Shown: positions 9,508 to 39,077 of the stretch, piece after piece
How the letters are laid out: every line of letters starts with the position of its first letter
How positions within the stretch are numbered: the first letter of the stretch is position 1
Virus record (IMG/VR): IMGVR_UViG_3300044492_000219
Coordinates: 1 to 39,225 of that record
From: a virus
DNA length: 39,225 nt
Direction: 5' to 3' (one strand)
The notes under the pieces: generated by a model
Databases searched by the model: none
What the model was told of the DNA's origin: nothing
Seen by the model: only the letters and a program-made list of their open reading frames with translations
Made by a program: the position numbers and the translations under genes

Positions 9508-9615
9508 TCACGCAACATTCTTGAGTGTCACGCAATTTCTCCTATGAACTGAACGCAGCCAAAAATTGACATTGACAGGCGGGTGGTGTACGGCTCAATA
9601 TTGCGCCGTGCGCAA
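9508..9615. promoter_or_regulatory. Immunity operators with TTGCG half-sites
   Basis: TCACGCAA occurs at 9508-9515 and 9528-9535, twenty bases apart. TTGCGC-CGT-GCGCAA at 9601-9615 is an inverted repeat of the same half-site and covers the GTG start of the Cro-like gene. Sites near both divergent starts suggest shared operators for the repressor and Cro-like proteins. Confidence 0.55.
9572..9601 (+). promoter_or_regulatory. Candidate promoter for the Cro-like gene and early operon
   Basis: A consensus -35 box TTGACA at 9572-9577 is followed after 18 bases by CAATAT at 9596-9601. Transcription would begin near 9608, the position of the GTG start codon, so the mRNA may be leaderless. A second overlapping TTGACA lies at 9566-9571. 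Confidence 0.5.
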
Positions 9616-9829
9616 CAAACGCCACTCCCCGGTCAAGCAGCGCGTGCGGCTCTATCTGGCCGAGCACGACATGACCCAAGACCAACTGGCGGCCCATGTG
9701 GGGATTACCGCCGGACACCTCTCCCACGTCCTGTCGCGGAAGCACACGCCGTCGCTGCGCGTGGCCGTGGCGCTCGAAAACATCACCGGGGTCTCCGTGC
9801 GTGAATTCCTCCCGTCGAGGGCGCGATGA
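9608..9829 (+). CDS. Cro-like XRE helix-turn-helix protein
   Basis: The protein has 73 residues from the GTG at 9608. The helix-turn-helix is clear (MTQDQLAAHVGITAGHLSHV followed by LSRKHTPSLRVAVALENIT). The size and position opposite a repressor gene fit a Cro-type regulator. A TTG extension to 9566 would overlap the promoter boxes and is rejected. It overlaps the next gene by four bases (ATGA). Confidence 0.75.
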   Translation: MRNKRHSPVKQRVRLYLAEHDMTQDQLAAHVGITAGHLSHVLSRKHTPSLRVAVALENITGVSVREFLPSRAR

Positions 9830-10128
9830 GCCTGCTGTCGCGTGCGGCCGAGACGTATGTGCCCCTGGCTACCCTCTGCGCCGACATTGGCTATCCGCCT
9901 GACCGGGTGGGGCAACGGAACCTACGCCGGCAGATTCGCCGCAAGGGCTTCGAGGTGCGTCGAGTCGGCAATGCGTTTTCCGTCCAGGTGAGCGTGTGGA
10001 CGGCCTATCTCCAACGCTGCGCCCAAGACAGCGCGCGGCATCGCACGACCATCGGCGCGCAGTCCAAGGCCCGGTGGGCCACCAGGCGCGAGGCCCGCGA
10101 ACCCGGCCCGCCGTTATGGAGGCCGTGA
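9826..10128 (+). CDS. Small basic protein, possible DNA-binding protein
   Basis: The protein has 100 residues and is rich in arginine. The segment LATLCADIGYPPDRVGQRNL then RRQIRRKGFEVRRVGNAFSV could be a winged or excisionase-like DNA-binding fold, but no family is recognised with confidence. It is coupled to the Cro-like gene by ATGA, so it may act in early control or excision. Confidence 0.55.
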   Translation: MSLLSRAAETYVPLATLCADIGYPPDRVGQRNLRRQIRRKGFEVRRVGNAFSVQVSVWTAYLQRCAQDSARHRTTIGAQSKARWATRREAREPGPPLWRP

Positions 10129-10211
10129 TTCTCATCGCCGTAGTGCTGGTGGTGTTTCTGTTGGGACAGATGGTGGACAGGCGTCCGATGGACGACGACG
10201 AGGAACCCTGA
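10116..10211 (+). CDS. Single-span membrane mini-protein (31 aa)
   Basis: The short frame encodes 31 residues: one hydrophobic segment (VILIAVVLVVFLLGQMV) followed by an acidic tail (MDDDEEP). It starts inside the end of the preceding gene and its stop overlaps the ATG of the exonuclease fusion gene. It is likely a membrane peptide of unknown role. Confidence 0.5.
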   Translation: MEAVILIAVVLVVFLLGQMVDRRPMDDDEEP

Positions 10212-11686
10212 TGCGGCTGACCCTGATTGACTTGTCCTCGTTAGCTTTTCCCATCTGGCACATGGCGGGCAGCGACCCGAACCCGAACGCCGTGTCTGAC
10301 CAGCTCGTGGCCCGGGTGCGGGCCCTCAGTGACGACCACACGGCCATCTGCTGTGATGCCGGTCGCTCGTTCCGCCACGACGTCTCGGTGGAGTACAAGG
10401 CCAACCGCAAGCCCGAAGAACGCGCCCCGCTGTACCACCAGATTGACCTGGCGCTCGACCGGTTGCGCGGTGATGGGTTTCCGATCTGGTTCGCTAAAGG
10501 GTTTGAAGCCGACGACATCATCGCCAGTGCCGCCCGGCGGGCGGTCGAGGCCGAGCACGACGTCTTGATTGTCTCGGCGGACAAAGACCTGCTGCAGCTC
10601 ATCGCGGACCGCGAGGCCGGCGGCGGGGCCGTCACGGCCAAATCCCTGAAGACCGGCGACATCATCGACGAGGCCGCCGTGGAAGCGCGGTTCGGCGTCC
10701 GCCCGGAGCAGATGTGTGACTACCTGACCATCGTCGGGGACGCGGCCGACAACGTGAAGGGCGTGGTGGGGATCGGCGAGAAGGGGGCGGCGCTGCTCCT
10801 GCAGAAGTGCGGCTCGCTCGACAATATCTACGAGCACTTGGACGACCTGGTGGCCGAGAAAACACTCAAGCCGTCCCAAGTGCTCTCGCTCAGAGCCTTC
10901 GAGTCGCGCCTGCAGGAAGTCCGCACGCTCATCACGCTGCGCACCGATGCGCCCGTCCCCTTTGACGAAATTCTGGAACCCCGTGTGCCCCTGGATGTGC
11001 CTGACATGACTGAAGACACTGCCCATACTGCCGAAACCGTCTACGACGATATCGACGAGGCGATGCCCACGGTGACGGCCCCCGCGCCTGACGCACCTGG
11101 GGCCCCATCCCCCCCGCCGCCACCCCCGCCGCCAGCGACAAAGCCGGTGGTGAACGGGACGCTGACGGTGCTGGACGGGCCGCCGCCGGACTGGAAAGTC
11201 GCGCTGGAGCCGACCTCAATGGCCGAAGCCATCACGCTGGCCAAGCACGCGTTTGACAGCAAGCAGTTCAGTGCCTACGGCACGCCGCAGGCCGTGCTGA
11301 TGGCCTTGCTCGCCGGCCGTGAACTCGGGCTCACGGCGATGGCGTCCCTGCGTGCCTTGCACATCATCGAAGGCAAGCCGACGATGTCCGCCGACTTGAT
11401 GCGGGCGCTGGTCATTAAGTCTGGGGCCGTGAAGTTCTTCCGCTGTACCGAGCGCACGGACACCTATTCGACCTGGCAGACGCAACGGGGCGACGATCCG
11501 CCCATCTCGGTCACCTACACGATGGACGATGCCCAGCGGGCCGGCGTCGTGAAACCGGGCAGCGGGTGGGTGAAGTACCCGGCCGATTTGCTCGTCGCCC
11601 GCGCATCGAGCAAACTCGCGCGGCTCGTCTGTCCCGACATCCTGCACGGAATCTTCACGCCGGATGAGCTAAAGGAGAATCTGTGA
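10211..11686 (+). CDS. Fused 5'-3' exonuclease and RecT-like annealing protein
   Basis: The protein has 491 residues in two parts. Residues 1-260 match the 5'-3' exonuclease (FEN/PIN) domain of DNA polymerase I: D7, D49, GFEADDII (97-104), SADKDLLQL (122-130), VGDAADN (175-181) and a helix-hairpin-helix at 183-197. A Pro-rich linker follows (about 286-312, with PPPPPPPP). Residues 331-491 look RecT-like: LLAGRELGLTAMASLRALHI, GKPTMSADLMRALV, and a conserved W with KYPADLLVARASSKLARL. It would resect DNA and load an annealing protein on the exposed strand. The exonuclease call is firm; the RecT-like call is moderate. Confidence 0.8.
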   Translation: MRLTLIDLSSLAFPIWHMAGSDPNPNAVSDQLVARVRALSDDHTAICCDAGRSFRHDVSVEYKANRKPEERAPLYHQIDLALDRLRGDGFPIWFAKGFEADDIIASAARRAVEAEHDVLIVSADKDLLQLIADREAGGGAVTAKSLKTGDIIDEAAVEARFGVRPEQMCDYLTIVGDAADNVKGVVGIGEKGAALLLQKCGSLDNIYEHLDDLVAEKTLKPSQVLSLRAFESRLQEVRTLITLRTDAPVPFDEILEPRVPLDVPDMTEDTAHTAETVYDDIDEAMPTVTAPAPDAPGAPSPPPPPPPPATKPVVNGTLTVLDGPPPDWKVALEPTSMAEAITLAKHAFDSKQFSAYGTPQAVLMALLAGRELGLTAMASLRALHIIEGKPTMSADLMRALVIKSGAVKFFRCTERTDTYSTWQTQRGDDPPISVTYTMDDAQRAGVVKPGSGWVKYPADLLVARASSKLARLVCPDILHGIFTPDELKENL

Positions 11687-12237
11687 CACCTCGTCGAGTC
11701 TCTTTGGCATCCGGCTTGAGATTTGGTCGGCTGATTGTCGTCCAGACCAGACCCCAACGACAAACACACGGCAGAACCGTCGCCGACGTTCGCTGCGATT
11801 GCGGCGCCATCATCACCGTGCTGCTTGGGAATCTCGCCAAGGGCGCGACAACATCGTGTGGATGCCGAAGACGTGACGTTTCCAAAACAAATGCCGCCAA
11901 CTGTGGCTACAGCGCAGTGACACGAACGCACGGCCAAAGCCTGACGCCGGAACACATCGCGTGGCGAGGCGCAAAAGGTCGTTGCTGTAACCCACGAAAT
12001 CACGCCTATCGCCACTATGGGGGGCGCGGCATCCAGATGTGCGACGAATGGAGGCGTAGCTTTGAAGCCTTTTTCGCCGCGATGGGACCGCGACCCAAAG
12101 GCTACACGCTTGAGCGTATGGATAACGACCTCGGATATGAACCCGGGAATTGCGTCTGGGCCACAAGAAAAACACAAGCGAATAATCGCCGTAGACCAGG
12201 CATTTACACCCCCGAAGAATTGCGAGAACACCAATGA
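11683..12237 (+). CDS. HNH/AP2-type homing endonuclease-like protein
   Basis: The protein has 184 residues. An N-terminal zinc-like region carries RCDCG and SCGC. The C-terminal half has a pattern seen in phage HNH/AP2 endonucleases: HYGGRGIQMCDEW, then GYTLERMDNDLGYEPGNCVW and TRKTQANNRR. It starts at a GTG overlapping the preceding stop. Its base composition is less GC-rich than its neighbours, consistent with a mobile insertion between recombination genes. Homing activity is inferred. Confidence 0.75.
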   Translation: MTPRRVSLASGLRFGRLIVVQTRPQRQTHGRTVADVRCDCGAIITVLLGNLAKGATTSCGCRRRDVSKTNAANCGYSAVTRTHGQSLTPEHIAWRGAKGRCCNPRNHAYRHYGGRGIQMCDEWRRSFEAFFAAMGPRPKGYTLERMDNDLGYEPGNCVWATRKTQANNRRRPGIYTPEELREHQ

Positions 12238-12686
12238 GCGAGACCGCGCTCACCGTGCTTGTGGAGATTCGCAACGCTCTGCGTGAACTCGTCGCGCAGC
12301 ACAAAGGCAAGGCGCCGGCCGTCATCCCACGGGCCATCAACCCCATTGCCCCAGACACCGAACTGGACAATCCCACGTACGGCGATCCGCCCGTCAAGAG
12401 CGCCCCTCGCGATTGGACGGGGGAATTTCGCGTCGGCCAGCGGATGAGCGAATGCGAACCCGTCCTGCTCGACCTGTTGGCGGAACGCTACGACTACTTC
12501 GCGACGAAAAACGACCGGGAGCAGGCGGTGACCGACAAGGGGCAACCGAAATCCGACTATGACCGGCGAGCCGCCGCGAAGGCCCGAGGTTGGGCTAAAC
12601 GCCTGCGTGCGGGGTACAGACCACGCACCCCGCCGCCGATGGATGAGACGCCAGAGTGGGGAGACTCTAATGACCCACCCTTCTGA
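12234..12686 (+). CDS. Hypothetical protein in the recombination block
   Basis: The protein has 150 residues. The central part reads PRDWTGEFRVGQRMSECEPV then LLDLLAERYDYFATKN, and the end is basic (RRAAAKARGWAKRLRAGYRP). Similar proteins follow recombination genes in other phages as far as I recall, without assigned function. It overlaps the homing-like gene by four bases. The position suggests a role with the RecT-like protein, which is inference. Confidence 0.7.
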   Translation: MSETALTVLVEIRNALRELVAQHKGKAPAVIPRAINPIAPDTELDNPTYGDPPVKSAPRDWTGEFRVGQRMSECEPVLLDLLAERYDYFATKNDREQAVTDKGQPKSDYDRRAAAKARGWAKRLRAGYRPRTPPPMDETPEWGDSNDPPF

Positions 12687-13259: not shown

Positions 13260-14321
13260 ATGAGAGCCGCGACGTTGTTTTCTGGCATCGGGGCACCGGA
13301 GCAGGCGATGCCGGGGTGGCAGTGGCTGTGGCACGCCGAGATTGAGCCCTTTCCTTCAGCGGTGATGGCCGTGAGGCATCCGCCGTCAGTGAACCTGGGA
13401 GATGTGACGAGCCATGATTTCTGCGAACGCGCATGCGCCATCGGGCGGCCAGATGTCGTTGTGTTTGGATCACCCTGTCAGTCCTTCAGTGTCGCCGGAC
13501 AACGGCTTGGCTTGGATGATCCACGCGGCAACCTGGCGCTCGTCGCCTTGGGAGTTCTTGCACGGCTTGAGCCGCGTTGGTTCGTCTTTGAAAACGTCCC
13601 CGGCCTCTTGTCGAGTGACGGCGGGCGAGACTTCGGGGTATTCCTGCGAGCAGTGGAAGACAGCAGGTATTGTGCGGCGTGGGCAGTGCTGGACGCGCAG
13701 TATTTCGGCGTGGCGCAGCGGAGGCAACGCGTGTTCGTTGTCGGCCATCTTGCAGACTGGCGGGCTCCCGCGGCGGTACTTTTTGAGCCCGAGAGCGTGC
13801 GCGGGCATTCTCCGACGCGCCGAGAAGCGCGGCAAGACGTTGCCCCCACACTTGGCGCAGGCCCTGGCAGCGGTGGCCGCACCTATGGCACCGATGCAGA
13901 CTCGTGTGAAAGCCTCGTCGCGATGACGCTCAACGGCAAGGGCGGCAGCGGACGGAGTGACGGCGAGTCAGAGACGTTCGTCACGCATTCCCTTCGTGCG
14001 GACGGGTTCGACGCAAGCGAGGACGGCACGGGGCGCGGAACGCCGCTGGTACCGGTGGCCTTCGACGCGCGGCAGTCGGACGAGTTGACAGCCGTGCGCC
14101 GATTAACGCCGGTCGAATGCGAGCGCTTGCAGGGATTTCCCGACGACTACACGAACGTCGCGTATCGCGGCAAACCGGCGGCCGACGGGCCACGCTACCG
14201 CGCGATCGGCAACTCCATGGCGGTGCCCGTGGTGCGCTGGATTCTTGCGCGGATCGCCCAAGTGGACGCACTCCAGGGCCATCGCGGACAAATGCCGTTG
14301 TCGTTCGAGGCCGTCTCATGA
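13260..14321 (+). CDS. DNA (cytosine-5-)-methyltransferase
   Basis: The protein has 353 residues with the ordered C5 methyltransferase motifs: I (LFSGIGAPEQA, 6-16), IV (SPCQSFSVAG with catalytic C73), VI (ENVP, 111-114), VIII (QRRQRVF, 153-159), IX (RRLTPVECERLQGFPDDYT) and X (GNSMAVPV). It transfers a methyl group from S-adenosylmethionine to cytosine. No restriction endonuclease gene is adjacent, so it looks like an orphan enzyme that protects phage DNA from host restriction. The variable region between VIII and IX sets the target, which cannot be read from sequence. Confidence 0.95.
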   Translation: MRAATLFSGIGAPEQAMPGWQWLWHAEIEPFPSAVMAVRHPPSVNLGDVTSHDFCERACAIGRPDVVVFGSPCQSFSVAGQRLGLDDPRGNLALVALGVLARLEPRWFVFENVPGLLSSDGGRDFGVFLRAVEDSRYCAAWAVLDAQYFGVAQRRQRVFVVGHLADWRAPAAVLFEPESVRGHSPTRREARQDVAPTLGAGPGSGGRTYGTDADSCESLVAMTLNGKGGSGRSDGESETFVTHSLRADGFDASEDGTGRGTPLVPVAFDARQSDELTAVRRLTPVECERLQGFPDDYTNVAYRGKPAADGPRYRAIGNSMAVPVVRWILARIAQVDALQGHRGQMPLSFEAVS

Positions 14322-14518
14322 TGCGCTGGCTCTTGCATCTGCTCGGCGTGGATGACGAGCCGGACCCGGCGTGGCGTCCGACTGGCGTCGTCTATAAATT
14401 CCACGGCCACGACGAAAGCAAAGCCCGCGCACGCTGGGAACAGCAGGAAGCCGAAGCCGCCGCCTGCCGCCAGTCGGCCCAGCGCCACATCAACACGAAT
14501 CCAGGGCCGCACTCATGA
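14318..14518 (+). CDS. Small hypothetical protein
   Basis: The protein has 66 residues starting at 14318 (a second ATG follows at once). It begins with a short hydrophobic stretch (MMRWLLHLLGV) and continues with a charged helical segment. It overlaps the methyltransferase stop and, by four bases, the next gene. Function unknown. Confidence 0.55.
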   Translation: MMRWLLHLLGVDDEPDPAWRPTGVVYKFHGHDESKARARWEQQEAEAAACRQSAQRHINTNPGPHS

Positions 14519-14898
14519 CGGACTACTCCGAGCGTTTCTTGCTGTTCTGGAGCAGCTACCCCAAACGCGTGGGCAAGGGCGCGGCGTGGAAGGCCTGGGT
14601 GAAATTAGACCCGCCGGCGCTGGTCATTGACGCCATGTTGACGGCGCTCGCGTGGCAGATCCATCAACCCAAGTGGCGCAAAGATGGCGGCGAATTCATT
14701 CCGTACCCGGCGACCTGGTTGAACGCCCGCCGCTGGGAAGACGAACCGCTGACGGCGACGGGGCCGGCAAAGGTCGATTGGTGGGACGAGTGTAAACAGG
14801 TCCACGGGGTAGACGCTGAGGGCGTGCCGGTGTGCGGGCAATCGTATTGGCATCATCAACGGATGGCGCGCGAACGTAGCGAAGGCGACAGCGTATGA
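14515..14898 (+). CDS. Phage replication-associated protein (helicase-loader C-terminal type)
   Basis: The protein has 127 residues. The sequence FLLFWSSYPKRVGKGAAWKA followed by IPYPATWLNARRWED is the motif pair seen at the C-terminus of many phage replication proteins (DnaD/DnaT-like or O-like). Here it stands alone without an N-terminal origin-binding domain. It may recruit the host helicase. Coupled to the previous gene by ATGA. The family resemblance is good; the activity is inferred. Confidence 0.65.
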   Translation: MTDYSERFLLFWSSYPKRVGKGAAWKAWVKLDPPALVIDAMLTALAWQIHQPKWRKDGGEFIPYPATWLNARRWEDEPLTATGPAKVDWWDECKQVHGVDAEGVPVCGQSYWHHQRMARERSEGDSV

Positions 14899-15725: not shown

Positions 15726-15907
15726 TGGCGACGAGCTGTGCGTTTGACGATTGTCGGCGTGGTGCGGAATCGGCGTCTCAGCCTGGCATGGTGCGCATCA
15801 CCGGCCAGTGGGTATGCGCGGTGTGCTGGTGGGGGCACCCGTCGCGACAACCCAAACTCACGCTCACAAGGGCTCCCCTCCGGAAACAAACACGGCGGAC
15901 CGCATGA
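15725..15907 (+). CDS. Small cysteine-rich protein
   Basis: The protein has 60 residues with Cys/His positions (CAFDDC, CAVCWWGH) that could bind zinc, and a basic tail. It is coupled on both sides: TGATG with the previous gene and ATGA with the following mini-frame. Function unknown. Confidence 0.55.
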   Translation: MATSCAFDDCRRGAESASQPGMVRITGQWVCAVCWWGHPSRQPKLTLTRAPLRKQTRRTA

Positions 15908-15945
15908 GACGGCTCCCTCTCTACAGCCAAGACACGCGGCCATGA
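15904..15945 (+). CDS. 13-residue mini-frame coupling into the sigma factor
   Basis: An ATG inside the end of the preceding gene opens a 13-codon frame (MRRLPLYSQDTRP) whose stop overlaps the sigma factor start as ATGA. It may serve only to carry ribosomes to the sigma gene. No protein function is proposed. Confidence 0.3.
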   Translation: MRRLPLYSQDTRP

Positions 15946-16616
15946 GCGCCCAACAGTGCACGGGTCATGATCGCGTCGTGGCCGGGATGCCATTTGTCAC
16001 CACGCTGGCGCGTCGGTTGGCCTCGTCGCGGCACAAGTTGGAGGTGGACGACTTGGTGCAGGACGGGTTGGTGGGGCTGATGGCCGCCGCCGCTCGCTTT
16101 GAACCGGCCCGTGGCATCCCCTTTGAGGCGTTTGCGACGTCACGGGTTCGTGGTGCGATGGTGGACGGGCTGCGCCGTGCCGCTTGGCCGCGCCAGGTGC
16201 GGCGGATGCGGCGAGAACTCCACGCCGCGCGCACGCGCCTGCGTCAAGAATTGGGCGCTGAACCCACCTTGGAAGAGTTGGCGGGGCGGTTGCGCCTGGC
16301 CGTCGTCCCGCTCCTGCGGCGTCTCCAGCGCATCAGTGCGATGGAGGACACGGTCCGGCCGCCGGCCTCTCCGGCCCCACCCACGCCTGATGTGTTGTAC
16401 GTGGAACAGGAAGCCCGCGCCCGGGTGCGCCGAGGCCTCGCGGGCCTCCCGCCCAGGGACCAGGTGCTTATCCAACGGTACTATTTCGACGAGACAACGA
16501 TGGCGGTGATTGCCGCCGAACTCGGCGTGACGCCATGTCGCGTCTCGCAACTACACCAACGGGCGCTCCGGCGACTCCGGGGCCTGCTCGCCACGACGCC
16601 ACCCGTGACCCCCTGA
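15942..16616 (+). CDS. RNA polymerase sigma factor, FliA/sigma-28-like
   Basis: The protein has 224 residues. Region 2 is visible at 34-82 (EVDDLVQDGLVGLMAAAARF, then GIPFEAFATSRVRGAMVDGL), region 3 at 104-132 (LGAEPTLEELAGRL), and region 4 at 167-215 (GLPPRDQVLIQRYYFDETTM, then ELGVTPCRVSQLHQRAL). The GA(M/I)xDGLR signature is typical of the FliA/WhiG group. It would direct host RNA polymerase to alternative promoters, most simply the late genes that converge on this operon. Promoters of this class were not identified by eye. Confidence 0.9.
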   Translation: MSAQQCTGHDRVVAGMPFVTTLARRLASSRHKLEVDDLVQDGLVGLMAAAARFEPARGIPFEAFATSRVRGAMVDGLRRAAWPRQVRRMRRELHAARTRLRQELGAEPTLEELAGRLRLAVVPLLRRLQRISAMEDTVRPPASPAPPTPDVLYVEQEARARVRRGLAGLPPRDQVLIQRYYFDETTMAVIAAELGVTPCRVSQLHQRALRRLRGLLATTPPVTP

Positions 16617-35182: not shown

Positions 35183-37176
35183 CGTCCCCCTCCAATTTGA
35201 TGTTGCATTGAGTGCTTATTGAGCGGTTCCTGTAATTGTGCGCTACCGCCATGTTCCGTATTCGGCGCGGGTGCCGGCTCAGGCGTGGGCGGCGTGCTGG
35301 GCGTGTTCGCCGCATCGGCCAAGAGTGCCGGGTCACCGAGTTGCATCGCGAGCGTTTGCTTCACGGCCGCCGGGTCAATCTGGAAGCCCGACTGCTGAAG
35401 CAACGACACGACCATGGGGTTGGTCAGATCCTCGGCCTTGAAACTGAGCGAGATGCGCGGCTTCTCGGGTGGCGGGGCCTGTGGCGGCGGCGGTTGCTGG
35501 AGATGCCGCGCCGGATCTTCCCCAAAGGCGACATAGACGTCACGCAACCCTTCGAGCCGGTTATTAAACGGGTCATTGGCCGTGAGTTGGTACCGGTCGA
35601 GCGCCATCTTGCGTTCGGCTTGCTGGTCGAGCCGCTTGGCGCTGTCGGGCTTGACGTTGTAGACAAACTTGCCGGGCACGGTGAGCCGATTCCAGGCCTG
35701 CATCTGTTTCGCGCCCCCGGGGCCGGCCAACTCCACGTAGTCCATGTCGTCGGCGAACAGTTGGATCAACCCGCCGAGCGCCGAGACGATGCTCACGAAC
35801 CAGCGCAGTACTTTGTCGCGCTCCTTATCGAGGCGGATGTCCGTCGCCTGATTCATGTACGTGAGTTCGGTCGCCGTCTTGCTGCCCTGCTCGGTGATGC
35901 CGGATTGGTTTTGCCCGAGCGCCCACGCCCGGTCGATGTCGCGCATGGAGATGTCGGAGGCAATCGAGGTGTCGCGCGGGAGGGTCGGCAGCGCAATCAT
36001 CTCGATGATTTCGTGCGGGGCCCCATCCGTGAGAATGATGGACTGCACTTCGCCCTGTTCAAGTTTCGCAATCGTCGCCGGATCGATGCGGCCCCGGTCG
36101 ACGCCCCGCATCGGGAGCGCCCGGCGTTTCTGCTGCATCTGAATCGTGCGCGTTTGGCTGAGTTCATCAACCGCTGGGCGCGACATTTGACAGTCGCTTT
36201 TCGGAAAGTGCGAATCCGGGGTGTACCGGAGCGTGAGCACCTTGATGGGGAACCCCTCGATGCCAAGGAGATGGCCACTCTGCGGATCGAGCCGCTGATA
36301 CGGCGAATCCTCATGCACGCGTGGCGCGTCTTCGCCTTCGACGAGCACCAGATGCCGGACAATCCGCCGGTCGGTGACGGTGGGGTCGATGCGGTACGCC
36401 CAGTACCAGATTTCCGTCACGGCCTTGCCTGGCCGACCGACGTGGTGCTTGGACGTGTCAATCAGCAGGTCCTGGTCGTACTGACTGCCGGCCTCGCTGG
36501 ACGGCGGATGCACGTCACTGAGGGTCGCGAGTTCCTGGTCGTCCACGAAGGATCGGAAGCCGAGCCAGTCGGCCTGCTGGTAATTGCTGCGGATGAACCC
36601 GGACGGCACGAGCAGTTTCGCGGGCGAGCCGCGCTCGATGTAGTAGCAACTGTGCGAGACCGTCGGCGGCAGCCCCGGTGCGGTCGGGGGGGTGACGCTC
36701 GCGGTGTAGCCGACTTTCACCCAGGCGAGACCGGCCGGGCAAATGACGTCGGACAAGCACTCATCGACCGCCGAGAGCACGTCGGTGTCGTCTGGGCCGA
36801 GTTTCTGATTGAGCACGGCGTTGAAGACCGGCACGGCCGCCGCGCTGTCGGGATTGCGCGGGGTGAGCACGACTTCGGGCACCTTATAGAAGAGCTGTGC
36901 TTTCTTCTGTTCGGTTTTCTCGTAATCGATATTGACCTGCGTCGTGTCGCGGAGTTCAAACCCTTGCGCCTGACGGTACCCGCCCGTGTAGCGTTTCAGG
37001 TTTTCGCGCCAGTCGGGCAGTTCCTTCTTCAACTCGTCGCGGGCGGCGGCGATTTCCCCACGCCAGAAGGCGAGCGAGCCGGGGCCATCGAGCGGCAAGG
37101 GGAGCCGGGTCGGATCGACCGGCGCGACCTCGGGCGCAGCGTCAGGGAGATAGTCGGGCGCAATCTCGGTGGTCAT
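35179..37176 (-). CDS. Portal protein
   Basis: The protein has 665 residues, the size of P22-type portals. Consistent features are an N-terminal helical region (RENLKRYTGG, QVNIDYEKTEQKKAQLFYKV), a central RTIQMQQKRRALPMRGVDRG region, a long helical segment (TATELTYMNQATDIRLDKER) and a disordered Pro-rich C-terminus. It overlaps the terminase stop and precedes small head genes. It forms the dodecameric ring for DNA entry. Confidence 0.85.
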   Translation of the reverse strand: MTTEIAPDYLPDAAPEVAPVDPTRLPLPLDGPGSLAFWRGEIAAARDELKKELPDWRENLKRYTGGYRQAQGFELRDTTQVNIDYEKTEQKKAQLFYKVPEVVLTPRNPDSAAAVPVFNAVLNQKLGPDDTDVLSAVDECLSDVICPAGLAWVKVGYTASVTPPTAPGLPPTVSHSCYYIERGSPAKLLVPSGFIRSNYQQADWLGFRSFVDDQELATLSDVHPPSSEAGSQYDQDLLIDTSKHHVGRPGKAVTEIWYWAYRIDPTVTDRRIVRHLVLVEGEDAPRVHEDSPYQRLDPQSGHLLGIEGFPIKVLTLRYTPDSHFPKSDCQMSRPAVDELSQTRTIQMQQKRRALPMRGVDRGRIDPATIAKLEQGEVQSIILTDGAPHEIIEMIALPTLPRDTSIASDISMRDIDRAWALGQNQSGITEQGSKTATELTYMNQATDIRLDKERDKVLRWFVSIVSALGGLIQLFADDMDYVELAGPGGAKQMQAWNRLTVPGKFVYNVKPDSAKRLDQQAERKMALDRYQLTANDPFNNRLEGLRDVYVAFGEDPARHLQQPPPPQAPPPEKPRISLSFKAEDLTNPMVVSLLQQSGFQIDPAAVKQTLAMQLGDPALLADAANTPSTPPTPEPAPAPNTEHGGSAQLQEPLNKHSMQHQIGGGR

Positions 37177-38804
37177 CGCAGGGCGGCCTCACGGAGTTGT
37201 TGAATGTCCCACGCGACCGAGCCTCGGATGGGCGCTTTCGGACGCGGCGTACTGGCCGGCCCAGGGCGGGAATTCGCGCCATAGCGCCACGCATCGGCCG
37301 CATGGTCGTCGCCATCGGTCTCGACGTCATCGGCATCGTGCGTGGACTGTTCCTGAATGGGAATGGTGCGCAGAAAGTAGCGGCAGGATGGGTCGACCGT
37401 GAGCCAGGGCTTGCCGTCGGGGGCCGTGCGCAACAAGTCATGGCAATTCTGCCAGCCGTTCTTCCCGCGCTGATTGTCGGCCTTGCGCATCGGCAAGCCG
37501 GCGCTGCGGAACGTCTCGACAATGGCGCGGCCATGGTCTTGGCCCGTCTTGTTCCACATGGACGGGTCGCCCGCGACGTAGCGGAGCCGACCCATCTCGC
37601 CGAGCAGCGTCCGGGTGATGGTGACCATCTTCTGCGCGACGTCGACTGGGTCTTCCTGCTGACCTTTCAACTCACGCGCGAGGTGGAGATGGCCGTCGGC
37701 CAGCACGGCCCACCACAACACGCAATACGGTTGGTTGTACCCCCAGTCCATCGACGCGAACCACTCGGTGCCGGCGGGAATGACGCGCGATTTGACGTGC
37801 CATTCCTGGCCGTTGTGGAACGTCTTGAACGCGCCGAAGAACGCGCCTTCGAAGACTGACCAATCGCCTTCGAGGAGCTGACTTCGGCGCGGTTCCGGCA
37901 TCTGGTCGAGGTTCTCGCGGTAGGTCAGATCGATGTACGGATTGTCGTCGACCTTGGCCTGGACGAAGGTGTGCCACTCGGGCTTGTACTTCGGGTAGGT
38001 GTCGGGATTGGGCTGTTTGGTAATGAAAAAGTCCCGCACCCAGAGCGCCCCACGCGGCCCCGGGTTACTCGCCGCCCAGACTTTCGGGCCGCCGAGCGCG
38101 GTGATGACCGCCGGGTTGCTCGTGCGGGCGCGGCTGAACAGTTCGATCATGTCGCCCTCGTCGTAGGTGACGAGTTCGTCGGGGACGATGATGTCGTATT
38201 CGCGCGACAGGTACGACTCTTTGGCCTGCTTGTCGTCCATGTGGCCGCCGACAATCGTGGCCCCCGTGCGGGGAAAGTACAGCCGCCGCTCGCCCCGGTT
38301 GTATTTCGCCCCAAACAGGTGCGCGTCTCGCTCCATCTTGAGCAGATGCGTTTCTTCGAGGTCCTTGTAGTTGGCGCGGATGATGAGGGCCGACAGATGC
38401 CGCACGCGGAGACAATAACTGTAGAGGGCCCAGCGCAGGACGTGCGACTTGGCCCCGCCGGCCGCCCCGCCATAGAGCGTGCGCACGCAGGCCCGTTGCG
38501 CTTCGAAGAATTCGACTTGCCGGGGCGTGGGCAGAAACACAAACCGGTCGGTCTCGCCCGAGCGGATGCGGATGCCCCAGGCTTCCTGGCGCGCGGCACA
38601 GGCGAGGGTGGGACACACCCATTGGCCGAGCGCGTTTTGCCAGAAGGCCTTGCCGCACCAGCAGCATTTGGCGTGGGGGTGCCAGACGATCGGGCCGTGA
38701 TGCACCGGCGCAGGTGGCAGCGTGACGGTCGCGGGCACGGCCACGACCGAGGGCAAGGGCGGTTTCCAGCCTTTTTTTTTGCGTCCGGAGCCGGCGCCTC
38801 CCAC
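37173..38804 (-). CDS. Terminase large subunit with N-terminal zinc finger
   Basis: The protein has 543 residues from the GTG at 38804 (opening VGGAGSGRKKKG). An N-terminal finger has cysteines at about 48, 50, 64 and 69. The ATPase shows Walker A GGAAGGAKSH (112-121), Walker B IIVPDE (205-210) and coupling ASNPG (245). The nuclease shows D353 (SMDWGYNQ), D413 (AGDPSMW) and D499/D500 (DDHAADAW). It cuts and pumps DNA into the capsid. A longer frame to 39008 is rejected since its first 68 residues overlap an opposite gene. Confidence 0.92.
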   Translation of the reverse strand: MGGAGSGRKKKGWKPPLPSVVAVPATVTLPPAPVHHGPIVWHPHAKCCWCGKAFWQNALGQWVCPTLACAARQEAWGIRIRSGETDRFVFLPTPRQVEFFEAQRACVRTLYGGAAGGAKSHVLRWALYSYCLRVRHLSALIIRANYKDLEETHLLKMERDAHLFGAKYNRGERRLYFPRTGATIVGGHMDDKQAKESYLSREYDIIVPDELVTYDEGDMIELFSRARTSNPAVITALGGPKVWAASNPGPRGALWVRDFFITKQPNPDTYPKYKPEWHTFVQAKVDDNPYIDLTYRENLDQMPEPRRSQLLEGDWSVFEGAFFGAFKTFHNGQEWHVKSRVIPAGTEWFASMDWGYNQPYCVLWWAVLADGHLHLARELKGQQEDPVDVAQKMVTITRTLLGEMGRLRYVAGDPSMWNKTGQDHGRAIVETFRSAGLPMRKADNQRGKNGWQNCHDLLRTAPDGKPWLTVDPSCRYFLRTIPIQEQSTHDADDVETDGDDHAADAWRYGANSRPGPASTPRPKAPIRGSVAWDIQQLREAALR

Positions 38805-38823
38805 GCGCGTCAGTCTACGCCGA

Positions 38824-38852
38824 GTGTCAAAAAATTGACAGTCGCCTGTCAA
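38824..38852. promoter_or_regulatory. TTGACA palindrome plus extra half-site, candidate operator
   Basis: GTGTCAA (38824-38830) and TTGACAG (38835-38841) form an inverted repeat around AAAA. A further TGTCAA half-site lies at 38847-38852. It sits between the divergent large terminase (leftward) and coiled-coil gene (rightward), like the palindrome at 33038. Confidence 0.55.
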
Positions 38853-38897
38853 AAGAGCGTCAGTGACGGCCCGCCGTGAGTTTGGTAGCGTGGCGTC

Positions 38898-39077
38898 ATG
38901 TCGGTGATGGTGAGCGAACTGTATAGGACCGACCTCGCGACGAAGGCGGATCTGGCCGACCTCCGGACGGCGATGGCCGAACTGAAGGCCGACCTCATCC
39001 GGGTCCAAGTGACGACGATGATCGCGATGACGGCCATCTACGGCGGGCTCGTGGCCGTACTGAAACTGTTTGCCTAA
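38898..39077 (+). CDS. Small coiled-coil membrane protein (59 aa)
   Basis: The protein has 59 residues from the ATG at 38898. A heptad helix (TKADLADLRTAMAELKADLI) leads to a hydrophobic C-terminal segment (MIAMTAIYGGLVAVLKLF). Small proteins with this layout are widespread in bacteria and phages without a defined role. It lies opposite the late operon, next to a TTGACA palindrome, and is followed in 2 bases by another plus-strand gene. A holin or membrane-anchoring role is possible but unproven. Confidence 0.6.
   Translation: MSVMVSELYRTDLATKADLADLRTAMAELKADLIRVQVTTMIAMTAIYGGLVAVLKLFA

Follow-up and report, generated by a model that had tools for sequence, protein, structure and literature searches.

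A phage protein joining a FEN-type 5′ nuclease to a RecT-type annealing domain: a candidate single-chain recombinase

The recombination systems known to us keep exonuclease and annealing protein apart as two proteins, which makes the hand-over of single-stranded DNA between them hard to isolate. A gene in the viral record IMGVR_UViG_3300044492_000219, analysed here over its full 39,225 nucleotides (the window), raises the question of whether both halves of such a system can be carried by one polypeptide and, if so, what this polypeptide would do. A first-pass annotation had read positions 10211..11686 (+ strand) as a FEN-type nuclease and a RecT-like domain in a single chain. Indeed, the gene is one uninterrupted open reading frame of 491 codons (GC3 0.84), and profile, fold and comparative evidence agree on its two-domain nature. 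The domain borders proposed at that time, residues 1-260 and 331-491, are also correct, with Pfam matches spanning residues 3-252 and PHROG matches spanning residues 357-489.

Two domains and a disordered linker

The N-terminal half of the protein (residues 3-252; 10217..10966, + strand) belongs to the FEN/Pol I 5′-nuclease family by sequence, fold and active-site residues. It matches PF02739 (5_3_exonuc_N, 3e-25) and PF01367 (5_3_exonuc, 1e-21) in Pfam, scoring 89 and 77 bits against the respective curated cut-offs of 34 and 40, and Taq Pol, Xni and T5 FEN are matched by sequence in the PDB. The modelled domain finds its best fold match in ExoIX (3zdb; TMt 0.82), while T5 FEN (1exn) is matched at 0.70. 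The acidic residues had been described as intact, and nine metal-binding carboxylates (D7, D49, E99, D101, D102, D124, D126, D177 and D180) are present in the window protein and all kept in 50/50 fused sequences that are complete at the FEN region. Characterized FEN enzymes favor flaps, nicks and gaps, and are non-processive on blunt ends, unlike lambda exonuclease.

The two domains are joined by a linker of about residues 262-326 (10994..11188, + strand), earlier described as Pro-rich, which is rich in both Pro and Ala and is predicted to be disordered, with pLDDT below 50 in the model. Across the fused relatives this segment varies from 34 to 196 residues in length while remaining rich in Ala and Pro, and it is the fastest-evolving part of the protein (dN 0.50-0.56 between the window protein and its 72-76% identical relatives). 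In a full-length model built from a 9-sequence alignment the FEN domain is well folded, and at a pTM of 0.52 the relative placement of the domains is uninformative.

The C-terminal half (residues 327-491; 11189..11683, + strand) is a RecT/Red-beta-type single-strand annealing domain, recognized through profiles, AF2 modelling and Foldseek. Residues 357-489 match the RecT-like PHROG 561 (2.8e-28) and PHROG 4171 (4e-19). The window's own domain, searched alone, falls below detection by Pfam RecT, which is matched by 6/8 close relatives (best 8e-4); likewise, the domain alone returned no match against the PDB by phmmer, and profiles were needed. With a profile built from 65 homologues, lambda Bet is matched in the PDB (7ujl, E=3e-6), and the AF2 domain model made from the 65-homologue alignment has a pLDDT of 92. 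Its elements follow the order helix, β-hairpin, helix, three-stranded sheet and helix; the Rad52 SSAP fold has been described by the same five, namely a helix, a β-hairpin, a helix, a three-stranded antiparallel sheet and a packed helix (PMC9870868). The two best PDB matches of the model in Foldseek are lambda Red-beta (7ujl, E 4e-5) and the RecT of a Listeria phage (LiRecT; 7ub2), both with a probability of 1.00. Seven RecT residues (G369, R370, E371, R381, W453, R471 and E486) are invariant in 52/52 fusions. The lambda Bet profile match, the AF2 fold and the Foldseek matches rule out a family unrelated to RecT, and the identity first suggested for this domain is upheld by profile search and structure prediction alike. 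By sequence and fold, the C-terminal half is thus a member of the RecT/Red-beta superfamily (Rad52 SSAP superfamily), for which binding of single-stranded DNA, multimerization and annealing are predicted. The fused domain is short, ending straight after the core without the C-terminal extension that standalone relatives have; Red-beta requires a C-terminal domain for recombination (PMC5052646).

Recurrence and origin of the fusion

The same architecture occurs on independent IMG/VR contigs at 96%, 72-76%, 43-48% and 33% identity to the window protein. After an added search by way of the neighboring partner gene (below), the set comprised 77 fused ORFs, a figure that counts some contigs twice; these reduce to 52 distinct sequences and to 36 clusters at 70% identity. 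The domain order, for which a search in other phages had been proposed, is thus found in 52 distinct homologues within IMG/VR. About fifty distinct relatives share the fusion, so it is not a mistake of assembly. That two genes were joined by an assembly or frameshift artefact has a negligible probability: nothing was found in favor of it, and it is ruled out by the 52 distinct fusions, their independent contigs and differing linkers, and a UniProt entry. This entry, A0A6J5MUB0 from an uncultured Caudovirales phage (462 residues), aligns over its full length at 42% identity and very probably belongs to the same fusion family, although it is annotated by its nuclease half alone as a 'PIN_53EXO domain containing protein'. 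Other long N-terminal extensions that precede RecT in the collected loci (e.g. L066, 737 residues) are the product of stop-to-stop reading in GC-rich DNA and not a second kind of fusion.

Both the FEN and RecT halves are under purifying selection. Between the window protein and its 72-76% identical relatives, dN is 0.14-0.18 for FEN and 0.18-0.21 for RecT against a dS of 0.85-1.25. In a tree of the annealing domain with 74 rows, one clade (99/98) unites all fused rows with two contig-edge rows and excludes the 47 standalone RecT rows; a single origin of the fusion would be the simplest reading.

The fusion recurs in uncultured viruses, but 50,697 annotated phage records, queried with two divergent fusions, contained none that spans both halves, nor did any plasmid sequence cover both. 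Among bacteria, 781 genomes were searched, drawn from the phylum of an Acidobacteria MAG (L093) and from the class to which a Rhodospirillales MAG (L095) belongs; the fusion was not found in them, and nine genomes had unfused RecT only. A search of genome contigs for the fusion returned Pol I FENs or no matches. The remark in the first-pass annotation that the fusion seemed undescribed also stands for the open-access papers searched: no account of the fusion was found in them, and A0A6J5MUB0 carries the fusion without being named as such.

An early operon with an SSB-tipped partner

Late genes of this temperate-type phage, among them the terminase (37173-39008), are encoded on the strand opposite to the fusion, which itself sits in the early lytic operon. 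The fusion lies closely downstream of a gene for a Cro-like HTH protein that heads the early rightward operon (9566..9829, + strand), beyond which a CI-like repressor and the tyrosine integrase expected of a temperate-type phage (7811..8887, - strand) are encoded on the opposite strand. The ATG of the fusion overlaps the TGA of a small upstream ORF for a hydrophobic peptide of 31 residues (10116..10211, + strand), and the two probably form one transcription unit with translational coupling. A C5 cytosine methyltransferase recognized by Pfam (13260-14321, + strand) and a replication-initiation-like gene (14515-14898) are found further along the window. Near the switch to the opposite-strand late genes there is also a sigma-70 family factor (15738-16616, + strand) that bears Sigma70 regions r2, r3 and r4 and matches PHROG 351 (E=1e-27).

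Immediately downstream of the fusion, and before the partner gene, is an HNH endonuclease gene (11683..12237, + strand; PHROG 374, E=2e-52), which is an insert and stands outside the recombination module. Its last 39 nt (12199-12237; GIYTPEELREHQ-stop) are a repeat of the fusion gene's 3′ end, with 34/39 identities to the end of the fusion in the related contig L002 and 33/39 to that in L007 but just 22/39 to the window's own. On this sequence evidence, the HNH gene seems to have inserted behind the recT part in the manner of a homing element, carrying a recoded 3′ end along. Other genes follow the fusion directly elsewhere, where a MT-A70 methyltransferase-like gene (L002, 9473-10480) and a PAPS-reductase-like gene (L003, 9488-10309) were each assigned by eye; such methyltransferase and PAPS-reductase-like genes are cargo that varies from phage to phage, within or close to the recombination operon. 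An extended array of imperfect ATxAATxDATxAATWAAT-type repeats is found in an ORF of contig L008 (5462-7030, + strand), which possibly encodes a repeat-structured protein.

The conserved partner of the fusion is a gene for a protein of 150 residues (family A7; 12234..12686, + strand) whose C-terminal end reads NDPPF, encoded at 12669..12683 (+ strand) and similar to the SSB tips DDDIPF and NDYPPF. A search of 22 members of this family found no Pfam, PHROG or PDB match, to an OB-fold ssDNA-binding domain or otherwise. An ending of the form [DE]x0-2PF (e.g. DDDIPF, ADDIPF, DSEIPF and NDPPF) is displayed by 10/24 members, including that of the window, and by 33/16,079 ORFs of the fetched loci with the family members counted in. 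In phage HK620, an SSB deprived of its NDYPPF tip gave about tenfold lower Sak4 recombineering (PMC5928155).

Almost every fusion has a member of the partner family beside it; no standalone-RecT locus from the first search does. A search with the partner family returned 71 contigs, comprised of 49 with FEN-RecT fusions, 4 with a contig-edge RecT, 4 with a standalone RecT and 14 that matched neither profile. Two of these 14 (L233 and L252) present the order YqaJ exonuclease, canonical RecT and partner, the RecT of L233 being assigned by eye from its likeness to that of L252, and two further contigs (L241 and L249) present RecT, a PDDEXK_1 exonuclease and the partner. Since the partner accompanies YqaJ/RecT and RecT/PDDEXK_1 pairs elsewhere, it marks operons of a nuclease and an SSAP. 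In five contigs (L241, L244, L247, L248 and L249), a PDDEXK_1/DUF2800-type exonuclease (phrog_69) comes after a RecT or other SSAP-like gene and before an SSB-tipped partner, a less known arrangement of exonuclease and SSAP.

In phages of Firmicutes, recT adjoins genes for YqaJ or DUF3799, and in phages of Gram-negative bacteria it adjoins recE-type exonucleases (PMC8093625). The 21 fusion records examined for such genes each contain exactly one PF02739 domain, the fused one. No RecE/YqaJ gene, DUF3799 or classical SSB was found in them, nor a confident PDDEXK_1 (one sub-threshold match, in G002). The absence of a Pol A polymerase domain from the same 21 records rules out a split Pol I. Conversely, no FEN was found in 28 standalone-RecT records. 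Given that YqaJ-RecT and RecT-PDDEXK operons share its partner gene, the RecT-fused FEN appears to stand where such modules usually have their exonuclease.

Proposed function and relation to known systems

We consider it reasonably probable that the protein is a resection-and-annealing recombinase of the phage in one polypeptide; its catalytic activities, direction of action, multimerization, strand hand-over and role in recombination are what we infer from the families, folds and gene setting. With metals held by the nine carboxylates, the FEN domain would degrade the 5′ strand, starting at double-strand ends, nicks or gaps, and expose 3′ single strands beside the tethered RecT/Red-beta-type domain. 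This domain would then multimerize on the exposed strands and anneal them to complementary DNA, and the FEN may also trim the 5′ flaps that remain after annealing. The long and flexible linker could leave one nuclease active while annealing domains build a filament, and the downstream SSB-tipped protein probably links the intermediate to partners that bind single strands or serve host repair. In the early operon, the fusion would thereby stand in for the two-gene pair of exonuclease and RecT. Some points weigh against this scheme, namely the preference of characterized FEN enzymes for flaps, nicks and gaps and their lack of processivity on blunt ends, the failure of the window's RecT domain to reach Pfam RecT by itself, the shortness of that domain, and the uninformative domain placement in the full-length model.

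The main rival to this scheme places the nuclease after annealing, with the host's RecBCD/AddAB and RecJ making the single strands, RecT annealing them and FEN cutting the displaced 5′ flaps for ligation. We hold this to be the less probable course, though one of real weight. FEN families favor 5′ flaps, which counts for such post-annealing trimming, and a flexible linker fits this work equally well; moreover, in a model of T7/T3 recombination gp2.5 first mediates annealing and gp6 then cleaves the non-homologous 5′ overhang (PMC3276506). Nevertheless, the search of the 21 fusion records turned up no other recombination exonuclease, and the FEN occupies the position of YqaJ/PDDEXK in sister operons with the same partner, although both roles may coexist. 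It is improbable that the FEN instead serves replication by removing RNA primers or processing Okazaki fragments, with RecT just an anchor to the single-stranded DNA of the fork. The family match to the primer-removal domain of DNA polymerase I, the replication-initiation-like gene nearby and the frequent encoding of SSAPs near replication genes (PMC8093625) would suit this role, but no Pol A polymerase accompanies the fusion in the 21 records, the function should be available from the host's own Pol I and RNase H, and the operon resembles modules of exonuclease and SSAP. Far less probable still is a protein devoted to annealing or to nuclease activity alone, its other domain having decayed. 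The missing C-terminal extension of the SSAP domain is the feature that would speak for such decay, and it is opposed by the conserved FEN carboxylates, the seven conserved RecT residues, the purifying selection acting on both halves and the retention of both domains together across 36 clusters.

The resection-and-annealing reading leads to a broader one, which we regard as evenly balanced: that of a natural single-chain recombinase in which a FEN replaced the PD-(D/E)XK exonuclease and became joined to RecT, so uniting resection, annealing and flap trimming in one enzyme accompanied by a new family of SSB-tipped partners, widespread in uncultured viruses and absent from the annotated phages searched. 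A natural fusion sets the stoichiometry of the two halves at 1:1 and opens their coupling to direct tests with split domains and point mutants. The fusion further suggests that these modules can exchange their nuclease half for one of an unrelated fold, and the gene is a candidate single-gene tool for recombineering with double-stranded DNA.

Among known proteins, the 5′-nuclease domain of DNA polymerase I, ExoIX (Xni) and the T5 D15 FEN share the family and fold of the N-terminal half; in Pol I this nuclease is joined to a polymerase and in ExoIX and T5 D15 it stands alone, whereas here it is joined to an annealing domain. Homologous annealing domains (28-34% identity over ~170 residues) are found in the standalone RecT-like proteins of Gordonia phage TillyBobJoe (gp57), Thermobifida phage P1312 and Salinibacter phages, which, unlike the fusion, are encoded by a separate gene and bear an extra C-terminal tail. 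In the Gordonia and Thermobifida phages this RecT adjoins a RecE/exoVIII-type exonuclease, as with TillyBobJoe gp57 next to the RecE-like gp56. In phage T7, gp6 is a FEN-family exonuclease and gp2.5 is an OB-fold, SSB-like protein that is not of RecT type. There, as in the fusion, a 5′ exonuclease works with an annealing protein, and patch repair in vitro needs both gp6 and gp2.5 (PMC3276506), but T7 uses two genes and an OB-fold annealer where the fusion has a RecT fold. The earlier claim that the FEN is unlike the usual partners of annealing proteins stands for its FEN/PIN rather than PD-(D/E)XK fold, and yields to the precedent of gp6 with gp2.5 (PMC3276506) as regards the pairing itself. 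In its proposed working the fusion resembles the pairs RecE/RecT and lambda Red (exo/bet), which also combine a 5′ nuclease with an annealing protein of the RecT/Red-beta superfamily in an early phage operon. The nucleases of lambda Red, RecET and YqaJ are of the PD-(D/E)XK type, in contrast to the FEN/PIN fold of the fusion, and lambda Red and RecET are each built from two separate genes, whereas the fusion is a single ORF in the window and in all complete relatives of its clade.
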